This document shows, piece after piece, positions 2,070 through 17,192 of a stretch of 20,283 nucleotides of DNA. Position numbers and translations under genes: made by a program. Numbering within the stretch: the stretch's first letter is position 1; every line of letters begins with the position of its first letter. Below the pieces are notes generated by a model. That model had not been told where the DNA came from, made no database searches, and saw only the letters and a program-made list of their open reading frames with translations. Source of the stretch: a virus. Where the stretch lies: IMG/VR virus record IMGVR_UViG_3300044972_000305, positions 1 to 20,283 of that record, one strand, 5' to 3'.

Positions 2070-2205
2070 CGCCTTAACTACTTTCGCTGAGATTATTGGG
2101 GCCGCGGCGATCGTTTGCGGTATCGCTATGGTTTCGGTTCCGTTCGCTTTCATTAGCGGCGGCGTTTTGGTTATTGCCGGTTCTTACTTGGCGGCTACGC
2201 GATGA
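2062..2205 (+). CDS. 47-residue membrane miniprotein between terminase and portal
   Basis: The open frame starts with ATG at 2062, overlapping the last 8 bases of the large terminase gene, and its TGA shares bases with the portal ATG (ATGA). The product is almost wholly hydrophobic: MRNALTTFAEIIGAAAIVCG followed by a second apolar stretch with FISGGVLVIAGSYLAATR. It probably forms one or two membrane helices. Both overlaps fill the gap between two essential genes exactly, which is the main evidence that it is real. Function is not recognisable; it might affect membrane association of packaging or act in the host envelope. No signal peptidase site or catalytic motif is visible. Confidence 0.72.
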   Translation: MRNALTTFAEIIGAAAIVCGIAMVSVPFAFISGGVLVIAGSYLAATR

Positions 2206-3380
2206 GCATTTTTAGCCGTCGCGCTATGCCGGCACCGTTACGGAATACCGGTTTCCTTGTCGGTAACAACTGGTCGGGCGAAAACGTTACGGAAGAAACC
2301 GCGCTAGAGGTTGCGGCGGTTCTGTCGTGCGTTTCTCTACTGGCCGACTCGGTAGCGGCGTTGCCGTTGCGTGCGGTCAGCCAGACCGGCGAACGCAATA
2401 CACGTATCGAGACCCCTAACTTTTTAACTGACCCGGCCGAAACGGTTACGCAATACGAACTTATCCATATGGTCGTTTCGTCGCTGGCATTACATGGCAA
2501 CGCGTATCTATGGCTTGACTATGCGGGCGGTACTGCCGGGCTTCCTTCTCAAGTCGTGCCGCTACATCCCGATAACGTAAACGTTACGATCGTAGGAAAT
2601 TCGCGTACGTACACGGTCGCCGGTTCCGCGATTGACGCTAACCAAATTTTGCATTTGCGATGGTTTACACCGCCGCAAGCCGCGAAGGGTATTAGCCCGT
2701 TACATCAGCAACGAAATACGATCGGCTCTGCGCTTGCCGTGGAACGTCACGTATCGCAATGGTACGGCGAAGGCGGTACGCCGTCTTCCGTTCTAGAGGT
2801 AGACGGAGATATAACCGTCGAGGCCGCGAAAGTTTTGCAAGCTACATGGGAAACGCAGCACCGCCGCCGCCGCCGTCCCGCCGTTCTTTCCGGTGGCGTT
2901 AAATGGAAACCTATTAGCGCATCCGCCGCCGATATGGAATTAAACGCGTCGCGAGAGTATGCAGTCGCAGAAATTGCGCGCATCTTCCGTATCCCGGCGC
3001 ATATGATCGGCGCAAAATCCGCTAGCCAAACGTACACAAATAACGAACAGGCCGGTTTAAACTTTCTTACGTTTACTCTCCTGCCATGGTTGCGCAGAAT
3101 CGAAGCGGCGTTTTCTAACCTTATGCCTACCGGGCAGCGCGTCGAGTTTGATACTTCCGCATTTCTTCGCGCCGATACGATTAACCGATACCGCGCTCAT
3201 CAGCTCGGCATAACTTCCGGTTTCATTACGCCGAACGAAGCGCGCCACGTCGAAGGTATGGAACCTTATTTCCCCGGCGGCGACGCGTTTGTTATGGCGT
3301 TGCCGGGCGCACCTATGGCCGGTCCCGGTGGCAATCCCGATCTACCGCCGGTCGGCGTAGACGCAGACCCGCCCGAATAA
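2202..3380 (+). CDS. Portal protein, HK97 family
   Basis: This 392-residue protein forms the dodecameric ring at the capsid vertex through which DNA enters and leaves and on which the connector is built. Family features in order: ALEVAAVLSCVSLLADSVAA (about 31-50), LHGNAYLWLDY near 97-107, ILHLRWFTP followed by GISPL near 150-168, and the C-terminal helical part with AEIARIFRIPAHMIG and NEQAGLNFLTFTLLPWLRRI (about 255-302). Length is typical of HK97-type portals (about 390-420). Translation is coupled to the preceding miniprotein by ATGA, and the last base of its stop is the first base of the protease ATG. An HRRRRRP run (about 221-227) is basic but sits in a normally variable loop. Confidence 0.95.
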   Translation: MSIFSRRAMPAPLRNTGFLVGNNWSGENVTEETALEVAAVLSCVSLLADSVAALPLRAVSQTGERNTRIETPNFLTDPAETVTQYELIHMVVSSLALHGNAYLWLDYAGGTAGLPSQVVPLHPDNVNVTIVGNSRTYTVAGSAIDANQILHLRWFTPPQAAKGISPLHQQRNTIGSALAVERHVSQWYGEGGTPSSVLEVDGDITVEAAKVLQATWETQHRRRRRPAVLSGGVKWKPISASAADMELNASREYAVAEIARIFRIPAHMIGAKSASQTYTNNEQAGLNFLTFTLLPWLRRIEAAFSNLMPTGQRVEFDTSAFLRADTINRYRAHQLGITSGFITPNEARHVEGMEPYFPGGDAFVMALPGAPMAGPGGNPDLPPVGVDADPPE

Positions 3381-4711
3381 TGCCCGACGCGTTTCCGCCT
3401 AACGACGGAATGGTTACCGAAGCTGCACGCGGTTTAGCGTGGCGCAGCGAATACGGTCGAGGCGGTACCGCTATCGGTATCGCTAGAGCGCGCGACATTG
3501 TTAACCGAAAAGATTTACCCGTAGCTACATGGCGACGGATTAAAGCCTATTTCGATAGGCACGAAGTAGATAAACGCGCAGAAGGTTTCAGCCCCGGCGA
3601 AGACGGTTACCCGTCTAACGGCCGTATCGCGTGGGCGTTGTGGGGCGGCGACGCAGGCTATACGCGTGCGCAGTCAATCGTAGAAACCGCTAACGAAACG
3701 AAAGCGTCAGCTATGGAACAGCAAAACGAAACCCGCAACGGCGACGGTATGTACCCGCTTACGCCGCGTCAGCAGAAACAGTACGAAGATTTAGAAGCGG
3801 TTACCGAATTGTTCGGGCAGTTTAATACTGGCATCGGTGAGGCTGGCGCGCATTATGTAGACGCTGCCGCTAACCCGTTTGCTAGTGAGGGTTTGGTTTG
3901 TTCGAACTGTTCGTTTTATGAGGGTCCGCGCGCGTGCGAAATCGTTGCGGGCGATATTGACCCTATGGGCGTATGCAAGTTTTGGATTATCCCGGAAAGT
4001 TTAACGTCGGGCGTTACGCCGGTAGACGTAGAGACGGTGGAAGATATGACCGAAGAAACAGTTACGGAACCGGAACCGGTGCGTTATGCCGCCTATCCGG
4101 TAGAGGCTCGCCGTATCGCCGGGCGTGACGTAGAGTTTCGCACCGTCGAGGTAGGGACCTTACAAGCTGGCGACGAAGACGCCGAAGGTTTCGCGCGTTC
4201 GTTTACTGGTTACGCTGCCGTCTTTAATTCACCTAGCGAACCGTTGCCGTTTATTGAGACGATCGCACCGGGCGCGTTTAAGCGTTCGCTGAATTCCGGT
4301 AAGGAAATTCGCGCATACGTAAACCACAATTCCGATATGCCACTAGCGACCACTAAGAACGGTTCGCTACAGCTCGCAGAGGATGAGCGCGGGCTACGCG
4401 TTAATATGACGCTTCCCGATACGACCGCCGGTCGTGACCTTTCGGTACTTCTCCGCGAAGGCGTAGTTCACTCTATGAGTTTTGGTTTTGCAGTACCGCG
4501 CGGCGGTGACGCGTGGAGCGACGACGGACAAAGCCGCGAGCTTCGCGAGGTCGTGCTATATGAGATTTCCGTAGTTTCGGGTCAGCCTGCATACGCAGCG
4601 ACGACCGGAGCAACCGTACGCACCGCCGACGATGCTACAGACATTCCCGAACCGGGCCGGTCTGTAGATATCGCCCGACGGTATTTAGAACTAGCGCGAA
4701 AGCGTAAGTAA
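3380..4711 (+). CDS. Prohead protease (S78) fused to an N-terminal phage domain and a four-Cys domain
   Basis: This 443-residue protein has at least three parts. Residues 10-100 form a domain known from phages, with GLAWRSEYGRGGT, HEVDKRAEGF and PGEDGYPSNGRIAWALWGGD; its function is unknown to me. Residues 170-205 hold C174-x2-C177-x8-C186-x12-C199, spacing like a high-potential iron-sulfur protein or a small zinc site. Residues 245-415 are the S78 maturation protease, with candidate catalytic H316 (VNHN), S367 (in SMSFGF) and E395 (LYEISVVSGQPAY). The protease trims the capsid delta domain and probably itself. Ordinary S78 prohead proteases are about 180-230 residues, so roughly half of this chain is extra. 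An internal ATG at 4046 with GGTGGAAG upstream could make a shorter protease form. The start overlaps the portal stop (TAATG). Confidence 0.9.
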   Translation: MPDAFPPNDGMVTEAARGLAWRSEYGRGGTAIGIARARDIVNRKDLPVATWRRIKAYFDRHEVDKRAEGFSPGEDGYPSNGRIAWALWGGDAGYTRAQSIVETANETKASAMEQQNETRNGDGMYPLTPRQQKQYEDLEAVTELFGQFNTGIGEAGAHYVDAAANPFASEGLVCSNCSFYEGPRACEIVAGDIDPMGVCKFWIIPESLTSGVTPVDVETVEDMTEETVTEPEPVRYAAYPVEARRIAGRDVEFRTVEVGTLQAGDEDAEGFARSFTGYAAVFNSPSEPLPFIETIAPGAFKRSLNSGKEIRAYVNHNSDMPLATTKNGSLQLAEDERGLRVNMTLPDTTAGRDLSVLLREGVVHSMSFGFAVPRGGDAWSDDGQSRELREVVLYEISVVSGQPAYAATTGATVRTADDATDIPEPGRSVDIARRYLELARKRK

Positions 4712-4806: not shown

Positions 4807-6006
4807 ATGTCTGAGTTTATTAAGAACCTTAGCGAACAGCGCGCCCGCGCATGGGAGCAGGCAAAGGGTCTACTTGACCACGCCGCTACCGAAGCCCGCG
4901 ACCTGTCCGCTGAGGAATCAGAGCAATTCGACCGCATTAACGCCGAACTTGATACCGCCGACGCGCGTATTAAGTCAGTTATCGACGCCGAACAGCGTAA
5001 CCGTGATATCGAAGAAAGCCGCGCCCGTCTTGGCGTTCCGGCCGACCTCGGCGCAACCGTTACCGCTTCGGTTGAGAACAGCGACGAAGATACCGTTCGT
5101 TCACTTATGAACGGCGAGATTCGTAGCGCACGTTTTGAGAAGCGCGCTATTACGTCTTCGTCTTCGGGTGGTGCGGTTCCTACTTCCGTTTACGATCGCA
5201 TCGTGGAACACCTCGTTCAGACGAACGTTGTGCGTAACGTTGCTACTATCGTTACCACGAACACCGGCGAGACGCTGAACGTTCCTACGTCTACCGCGTT
5301 TAGTACCGCGTCTATCGTTGGCGAAGCTGCGCAAGCTTCCGCTTCCGATCCGACTCTTGCTACCCGCGCGCTCGGAGCTTACAAGTACACCGTACTCGTG
5401 CAGCTCTCGAATGAATTGGCAAGCGACGGAGCCGTAGACGTTGCGGGCTTCCTCGCACGTCAGGCCGGTACCGCTATCGGTGTCGCTACTCGTGGACATA
5501 TGACCACGGGCGACGGCAGTTCGAAACCGACCGGTATCGTTACTAGCTCAACCGCTGGCAAGACCGGCTCGACTTCTGTCTCCGGTGCATTTACCGGGGA
5601 TAATCTGATCGACCTTCGCTATAGCGTTGGATCAGCGTACACGTCGCAACCCGGCTGCGGTTTCATGATGAATAATACCGCGATGGCTGCGGCTCGTAAG
5701 CTTAAGGGTACCGCGAACGATCACTACATTTTTGCTCCCGGCATGAATGGCGACCCCGATCAGCTTCTCGGCTTCCCGGTGTACCTGAACGATTCAATGG
5801 CTAACCCGGCAGTTTCGGCTAAGTCTGTTCTGTTCGGTCACTTCCCGAGCTACTACATCCGCGAAGTTAACGGTATCGACGTTGCAGTTTCGGACGATTT
5901 CGCGTTCGACTATTCTGTTCGTACGTTCCGTGTGCAGCTCCGTACCGATGGTCTACTCATTGACCAGACCGGCGCGGTTAAGCATTTCGTCGGCGGCGCA
6001 AGCTGA
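4807..6006 (+). CDS. Major capsid protein, HK97 fold
   Basis: This 399-residue protein builds the icosahedral shell. Residues 1-75 are a charged, coiled-coil delta (scaffolding) domain, linked by a low-complexity stretch to a mature domain that probably begins near residue 112 (FEKRAITSSSSGGAVPTSVY). The likely protease cleavage site is in that linker; the exact bond is not determinable here. Later hallmarks include TFRVQLRTDG and the ending DQTGAVKHFV. A strong ribosome binding site (AAGGAAAGG, 7 bases before ATG) follows a 95-base untranslated gap, and codon choice differs slightly from its neighbours (more CTG and CTC leucine), consistent with high expression. A long hairpin follows the stop codon. 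Confidence 0.95.
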   Translation: MSEFIKNLSEQRARAWEQAKGLLDHAATEARDLSAEESEQFDRINAELDTADARIKSVIDAEQRNRDIEESRARLGVPADLGATVTASVENSDEDTVRSLMNGEIRSARFEKRAITSSSSGGAVPTSVYDRIVEHLVQTNVVRNVATIVTTNTGETLNVPTSTAFSTASIVGEAAQASASDPTLATRALGAYKYTVLVQLSNELASDGAVDVAGFLARQAGTAIGVATRGHMTTGDGSSKPTGIVTSSTAGKTGSTSVSGAFTGDNLIDLRYSVGSAYTSQPGCGFMMNNTAMAAARKLKGTANDHYIFAPGMNGDPDQLLGFPVYLNDSMANPAVSAKSVLFGHFPSYYIREVNGIDVAVSDDFAFDYSVRTFRVQLRTDGLLIDQTGAVKHFVGGAS

Positions 6007-16638: not shown

Positions 16639-16944
16639 ATGTTTGCACAAGCTCAAACGACAATAGTAGACGGTCCGGGTTTCGGCGTCGCCGAATGGAT
16701 CGGGATAGTAACGGTAGTAACGGTCGCGTTCGGCGCGGTCGTCGGCGCAATCGTACAACTAGTACGCCTACGCCGTGAGAACACCGAACAGCACGCCGAA
16801 GGGCGCGCGCTCGTAACCGATGTACGCGACCGGCTACTAGACCTGCACACTTCCGTAAATCGCGTGGACGAAAAAGTAGACCATCTAGATACACGTCTAG
16901 ACCGACACGAAAATATCCACCACCGCGGTCGCCGTAAATGGTGA
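16639..16944 (+). CDS. DUF2746-like membrane protein, candidate holin
   Basis: This 101-residue protein has one clear membrane helix (about 18-43: WIGIVTVVTVAFGAVVGAIV) followed by a charged, helical cytoplasmic-type tail (RALVTDVRDRLLDLHTSVNR, then DEKVDHLDTRLDRHENIHHR). One membrane segment plus coiled coil right after the endolysin is typical of DUF2746-type actinophage membrane proteins and of some type III-like holins. Whether it forms lesions, or regulates the r1t-type holin encoded downstream, cannot be told. It begins 4 bases after the amidase stop. Its last seven bases overlap an alternative start of the next gene. Confidence 0.68.
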   Translation: MFAQAQTTIVDGPGFGVAEWIGIVTVVTVAFGAVVGAIVQLVRLRRENTEQHAEGRALVTDVRDRLLDLHTSVNRVDEKVDHLDTRLDRHENIHHRGRRKW

Positions 16945-16964
16945 ACCCGCCTAAAGGGGACGGC

Positions 16965-17192
16965 ATGAGCTTCGCAGACGAAGTAAAAAAAGAGAACCGC
17001 GGAACCGGGCAACGCTGCCGGACGTGCCAACTTCTCGAACAGTTAGACCCGACCGAAGCCGCCGAAATCGCTACGGTCATGGCAGACAAAACAGTACCAA
17101 CCGAACCGATCGCGCGCGCGTTGAATAATCGCGGTCTAGATATTTCCGGCAATGCCGTTAGAAAGCATCGGTTACGTTGTGTCATTTCGTGA
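16965..17192 (+). CDS. Small Zn-finger/HTH-like protein
   Basis: This 75-residue protein, as started at ATG 16965, has an excellent ribosome binding site (AAAGGGGA, 4 bases upstream); an earlier ATG at 16938 lacks one. C18-x2-C21 (QRCRTCQLLE) and H68-x3-C72 (RKHRLRC) could bind one zinc ion. Between them a helical region ends in a helix-turn-helix-like IARALNNRGLDISGNAVRKH (about 49-68). This looks like the small Cys-rich protein that often precedes the phage metallophosphoesterase gene. DNA or RNA binding is an inference; the target is not known. Confidence 0.65.
   Translation: MSFADEVKKENRGTGQRCRTCQLLEQLDPTEAAEIATVMADKTVPTEPIARALNNRGLDISGNAVRKHRLRCVIS

Follow-up and report, generated by a model that had tools for sequence, protein, structure and literature searches.

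Why should the prohead protease of a phage carry, in the middle of its polypeptide, a four-cysteine motif resembling that of high-potential iron-sulfur proteins (HiPIPs)? The locus that raises this question lies in a 20,283-nucleotide fragment from an uncultured virus (IMG/VR record IMGVR_UViG_3300044972_000305, positions 1 to 20,283; hereafter the window, meaning the whole stretch analysed), with the gene order of an ordinary head-tail virus: terminase, portal, protease, HK97 capsid and tail genes. A preliminary description of this DNA had proposed that the protease may carry a metal cluster or zinc knot that could sense redox, stabilise an assembly intermediate or be co-packaged. Here, we identify a divergent domain of the HiPIP family in phage head proteins, a setting new for it. 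The best overall explanation, to which we give a probability of about 0.6, is that this domain (H) is a HiPIP-family [4Fe-4S] domain serving as an accessory, head-resident protein rather than in catalysis by the protease or its regulation.

The protease is of the HK97 type (Peptidase_S78 at residues 266–413, E = 2.1e-39; TIGR01543, E = 3.4e-31), and its gene adjoins those of the portal and capsid. The features of the locus, in window coordinates, are:

2202–3380: portal gene
3380–4711, + strand: prohead protease of 443 residues, ordered N-terminal domain, HiPIP-like domain (H), linker, Peptidase_S78 (open reading frame and domain matches)
3380–3715, + strand: N-terminal domain, residues 1–112, part of phrog_2859, a confident fold in the full-length model
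3746–3997, + strand: H, residues 123–206, with an N-terminal helix, a conserved GAHY tyrosine and the four-cysteine core (profiles, fold and conservation)
3854–3856, + strand: Tyr159, invariant in 113/113 copies, counterpart of the conserved HiPIP tyrosine (Tyr14 of Iro)
3899–3901, + strand: Cys174, predicted cluster ligand 1, invariant in alignments
3908–3910, + strand: Cys177, predicted cluster ligand 2, invariant in alignments
3935–3937, + strand: Cys186, predicted cluster ligand 3, invariant in alignments
3974–3976, + strand: Cys199, predicted cluster ligand 4, followed by K-F-W (aromatic shield), invariant in alignments
3998–4174, + strand: acidic, variable linker between H and protease, residues 207–265 (median homologue identity 28%, low pLDDT)
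4175–4618, + strand: Peptidase_S78 domain, residues 266–413, with invariant His316 and Ser367 (Pfam match)
4807–6006: HK97 capsid gene

From knowledge of the family, we take His316 and Ser367 to be the likely catalytic residues of the S78 domain. The N-terminal domain (3380–3715) appears repeatedly among these head proteins, in some before H and in others after it.

The preliminary description had read the motif correctly: C174-x2-C177-x8-C186-x12-C199 accounts for the only four cysteines of the protein, and the peptides that it quoted, CSNCSFYEGPRAC and GDIDPMGVCKFW, are found around them inside 3890–3980. That interval contains the motif but not the whole domain, which spans about residues 123–206 (3746–3997). 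Cysteine makes up 0.5% of the window proteome, from which composition 4.9e-6 exact occurrences of the motif are expected. A scan of viral contigs yielded 75 loci, and a profile-driven scan found at least 295 confirmed relatives, 80 of which were kept. Among the distinct homologues covering the region, C-x2-C-x8-C-x12-C is retained with the same spacing in 113 of 113, no copy having lost a single cysteine, and the tyrosine upstream of Cys1 is present in all 113 as well. Divergent second copies of H, 28–33% identical to the window domain, also retain the four cysteines. Such conservation across homologues rules out a chance occurrence of the motif.

Because the search patterns included cysteine-containing peptides, we tested conservation again in loci gathered through the capsid protein. 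In this set, unselected for the cysteine domain, 51 of 51 complete H copies were intact, and the single exception was a contig end cutting inside the domain. The distribution of H is all-or-none: either the four cysteines are present or the whole domain is absent. H was also more conserved than the protease in each of 116 pairs with protease identity below 45%, which we do not take as proof that it evolves more slowly because the loci were chosen through H peptides. Beyond the cysteines, the Phe-Tyr after Cys2 is kept among H copies, a tryptophan stands at Cys4+3 in 106/113, and position Cys4+2 or +3 is aromatic in 110/113. The residue before Cys4 (Cys4-1) is isoleucine in 87 copies, valine in 16 and another residue in 10, with tryptophan in 0 of the 113.

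As described, HiPIPs carry electrons in the periplasm, chiefly in phototrophs and iron oxidisers, and their [4Fe-4S] cluster uses the 3+/2+ couple at +50 to +500 mV; Tat export to the periplasm is usual for them, not definitional. Tryptophan at Cys4-1 is well conserved in the family, not universal, and is replaced by tyrosine in Iro. Searching all PDB sequences with a hidden Markov model of the phage homologues returned HiPIPs as the five best matches (best E = 8.8e-5), and the NCBIfam HiPIP model Iro (NF041615) matches the window protein at E = 5.4e-5. Pfam HIPIP (PF01355) matches 29 of 35 H members. The window domain itself scores 18.7 bits, below the gathering cut-off of 22 bits, as does one real short bacterial HiPIP (20.3 bits), and this cut-off is not biologically defining for HiPIPs. 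When the phage H profile was aligned by hhalign with ten bacterial HiPIPs, most of them bearing twin-arginine leaders, it scored 98%, while 60 shuffles preserving the cysteine columns gave at most 13.5%. An AlphaFold (AF2) model of H built without templates reached a pLDDT of 95.8, and Foldseek placed HiPIPs as its three best folds in the PDB (TM 0.41–0.54, best probability 0.97, E = 0.03). In the full-length AF2 model, residues 137–243 are not resolved and the domain arrangement is not usable.

Elsewhere in the window (16938–17192, + strand), an 84-residue protein with a CxxC pair has weak HTH and HIPIP scores and a metallophosphoesterase-like gene downstream. As this apparently unrelated protein reaches about 15 bits with HIPIP, such scores alone mean little.

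The spacing of H is the same as in the bacterial HiPIPs that we examined and as in PioC (Cys 22/25/34/47; PMC7462912) and Iro (Cys 24/27/36/49; PMC10654088). An aromatic residue at Cys4+2 or +3 is a HiPIP feature (PMC7462912), and the conserved Tyr14 has a role in Iro (PMC10654088). The window protein has no twin-arginine leader, H being an internal domain. Because the missing tryptophan is a conserved but non-universal trait, we place H in the HiPIP family as a divergent homologue rather than among the classical HiPIPs. Tests on sequence, profile and fold, independent of one another, support true homology behind the resemblance proposed in the preliminary description, and we are nearly certain that H is homologous to HiPIPs of the minimal PioC/Iro type. 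H probably binds a [4Fe-4S] cluster.

We compared the contexts of H across loci, counting each locus and including contigs that overlap. The arrangement seen most often is terminase, portal, N-H-S78 and capsid, and in most loci H lies within the portal-protease-capsid block. In some loci it directly precedes the protease; in others it follows it (L057, L058, L071–L073), stands before the N-terminal domain (L050, L060) or forms the C terminus of the portal (L040). It also opens protease-capsid polyproteins of about 632–635 residues, with Pfam S78 and capsid matches in one chain (L027:2922–4817, L041:2633–4537), shares a chain with the N-terminal domain and a Zeta-toxin domain (L061:2122–4509, also L064), and occurs twice in one chain (L046, L051, L053). 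Some loci have H alone, as a free gene, and some of the free copies in large phages adjoin tail-fibre-like genes, not head genes. The free, portal-fused, Zeta-fused and duplicated copies rule out that H always accompanies the protease, and the free copies near tail-fibre-like genes rule out that it always belongs to the head gene cluster. A fold search among viral proteins found the H fold in entries that UniProt names as ClpP-class protease, XkdF, HAD, ParB/sulfiredoxin, Zeta toxin and helicase.

At L068, L069 and L079, large phages carry a pair of adjacent free HiPIP-like genes that differ from each other, each beginning with a WL[AS]-type motif. We rejected the WL[AS]E N-terminal motif of these paired copies as a general targeting tag, since it has few genome matches and nearly all of them are H genes. 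At L254 (2475–3896), another domain fills the slot between N-terminal domain and protease where relatives have H.

A natural pair of loci, with and without H, isolates the domain: L208 and L218 have flanks of 88% identical DNA, and L208 has about 306 bp extra, in frame, encoding H. On a capsid tree of 83 rows, explaining where H is present or absent takes 6 changes, and supported branches force at least 4 of these. From its varied positions, its clean absence and these gains or losses, we conclude with high confidence that H is an accessory cassette and no functional component of the protease.

Phages in sequence records bear related domains. By terminase (45%) and capsid (37%), the nearest cultured relative is Pontimonas phage phiPsal1. 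Its prohead protease (AUV61415.1; MG835450.1, L259:3809–5260) combines the N-terminal domain with a four-cysteine HiPIP-like domain, as the window protein does, but differs in that the domain has the spacing C-x2-C-x15-C-x12-C, precedes the N-terminal domain and scores only weakly as a HiPIP, although HiPIPs are its best matches in both Pfam and the PDB. It may represent an independent recruitment. Synechococcus phage S-SRM01 (MW015081.1) encodes a free 67-residue HiPIP (QPX48026.1, L260:3968–4171) that is 44% identical to a bacterial HiPIP and starts with MKSFQEFLFE; eight S-SRM01 genes share such a start, and a control pattern finds none. Its F4, F7, L8 and E10 fit the capsid-targeting scheme of T4 by comparison with T4 sequences. 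T4 capsid-targeting sequences are ten-residue N termini in which residues 4 and 7 mainly serve targeting and 8 and 10 processing (PMC9026906). Because the S-SRM01 HiPIP is a separate lineage, we treat its targeting signal as analogous evidence only.

The same H domain occurs in 1 of 50,697 phage records, that one being a metagenome-assembled phage. In DSL-LC01, H stands at the end of a "capsid maturation protease" whose neighbour is annotated "high potential iron-sulfur protein" (WJZ48512.1, L077:3143–3877). We rejected this neighbour as an H protein: it has no Pfam match at E 10 and the H profile does not retrieve it. WJZ48512.1 is a different cysteine-rich protein, with no Pfam or PHROG match.

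The fusion partners suggest where H acts. Given what is generally known of HK97-type heads, the inside of the prohead is presumably the common denominator of most of them (protease, portal C terminus and N terminus of the capsid polyprotein), which favours a head cargo or internal module over a protease-specific redox switch. Six related phage records, some of them fragments, have no NifU-type scaffold genes, which points to cluster loading by the host. We propose that host Fe-S machinery would insert the [4Fe-4S] cluster in the cytoplasm, the polypeptide folding around it, and that H would then enter the prohead within the protease, on the C terminus of the portal or at the N terminus of the protease-capsid polyprotein; entry of this kind is, from the partners, likely. 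Maturation proteolysis in the prohead could free H, leaving a head-resident accessory protein that the virion might keep or eject together with the DNA. The co-packaging suggested in the preliminary description is plausible in this light, although retention in the virion or ejection as cargo is a tentative proposal that we would place somewhat below even odds. The task of H is the least certain step of the mechanism, the candidates being an electron carrier, an oxidant sink or a cluster-stabilised interaction module. A broader generalisation is speculative and at present doubtful: that HiPIP domains have been recruited time and again by aquatic phages as head cargo, each an iron-sulfur protein that is produced during infection of the cell, enters the prohead through fusion to any available head protein or through a capsid-targeting sequence, is released there by the prohead protease, and then either travels with the DNA or stays in the virion as a redox centre.

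We weighed this reading against one in which the cluster is structural only, a folding staple, with H an interaction or scaffold-like module in head assembly that is broken down or expelled afterwards. Lambda gpL, whose 4Fe-4S domain moves as a rigid body (PMC11101478), sets a precedent in a phage particle; the folding of PioC, which is poor in secondary structure, is apparently driven by the cluster (PMC7462912); and the missing tryptophan at Cys4-1 may mean that tuning of the potential is less needed. Yet close relatives assemble without H, its fusion partners are too varied for a single interaction partner, and another phage has a free HiPIP with a capsid-targeting-like start, so that we regard a purely structural role as the less likely reading, though a serious rival. 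It is improbable that H senses redox state or oxygen to time the protease, with oxidation or loss of the cluster altering protease activity or prohead maturation. In most loci H is fused directly to the S78 protease, and [4Fe-4S] clusters can respond to oxidants; but some copies of H are not joined to a protease at all, being free or attached to the portal, and others follow it across a variable linker; the protease with H cleanly removed persists in nature (L208/L218), and the full-length model, of low confidence, shows domains without contact. Both the redox sensing and the stabilised assembly intermediate of the preliminary description are weakened, because H is cleanly missing from close relatives whose protease and capsid are the same, and because it also occurs detached from the protease. 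A zinc knuckle or ribbon, in which the four cysteines would hold zinc in a small structural or nucleic-acid-binding domain, is very improbable: CxxC...C...C sites often bind zinc and three H members match DUF3716 weakly, but the HiPIP similarity reaches well beyond the cysteines, the Tyr, the Phe-Tyr after Cys2 and the Trp at Cys4+3 are retained, the predicted fold is like HiPIPs and unlike zinc folds, no zinc family recurs among matches to 24,736 Pfam models, and a zinc site in H finds no support from profiles or folds.

As an accessory head-resident [4Fe-4S] domain, H would have implications beyond this locus. Its fold is a conserved, swappable head-protein module in at least 295 uncultured viral contigs, which suggests that iron-sulfur chemistry serves viruses, during assembly or infection, in a way not yet described. 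Some phages probably build an iron-sulfur protein inside their heads, as the fusions suggest, and may carry it; if packaged, H is a concrete candidate for iron inside phage heads. The L208/L218 pair offers a natural comparison with and without H, and phiPsal1, a phage whose host is named, a related HiPIP-like domain within its prohead protease. In the literature that we searched, no paper brings HiPIP, phage and capsid together: a HiPIP domain is not mentioned in the DSL-LC01 paper, iron-sulfur or HiPIP terms are absent from the text of the polyvalent-protein paper (PMC5512222), and the text of PMC9026906 does not mention iron-sulfur cargo. This agrees with the earlier statement that no role had been described, although UniProt already labels at least two viral relatives as HiPIPs: A0A6J5M9J5 (uncultured Caudovirales phage), which has the same domain as H (TM 0.95, 51% identity), and A0A879R316 (S-SRM01), of the related but separate lineage (TM 0.54, 28%), are both auto-named "High potential iron-sulfur proteins family profile domain-containing protein". 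These labels are automatic and are not linked there to prohead proteases.

Compared with known systems, the window protein is, in its C-terminal half, an unremarkable HK97-type prohead protease (Peptidase_S78), whereas the HiPIP-like cassette is an extra that close relatives lack. With PioC of Rhodopseudomonas palustris and Iro of Acidithiobacillus ferrooxidans, H has in common the cysteine spacing, the upstream tyrosine, the aromatics after Cys2 and Cys4 and profile similarity; unlike them, it sits within a phage head protein, without a Tat signal and with an extra N-terminal helix, and has mostly Ile or Val where HiPIPs have Trp or Tyr before Cys4. The lambda tail protein gpL has an iron-sulfur domain in a phage structural protein, as predicted for H (PMC11101478), but in the tail tip, not the head. 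Although the window protein has no capsid-targeting sequence, a possible functional analogue of H is found in T4 internal head proteins and phage polyvalent proteins, which are dispensable, variable, carried in the head and ejected (PMC9026906, PMC5512222).
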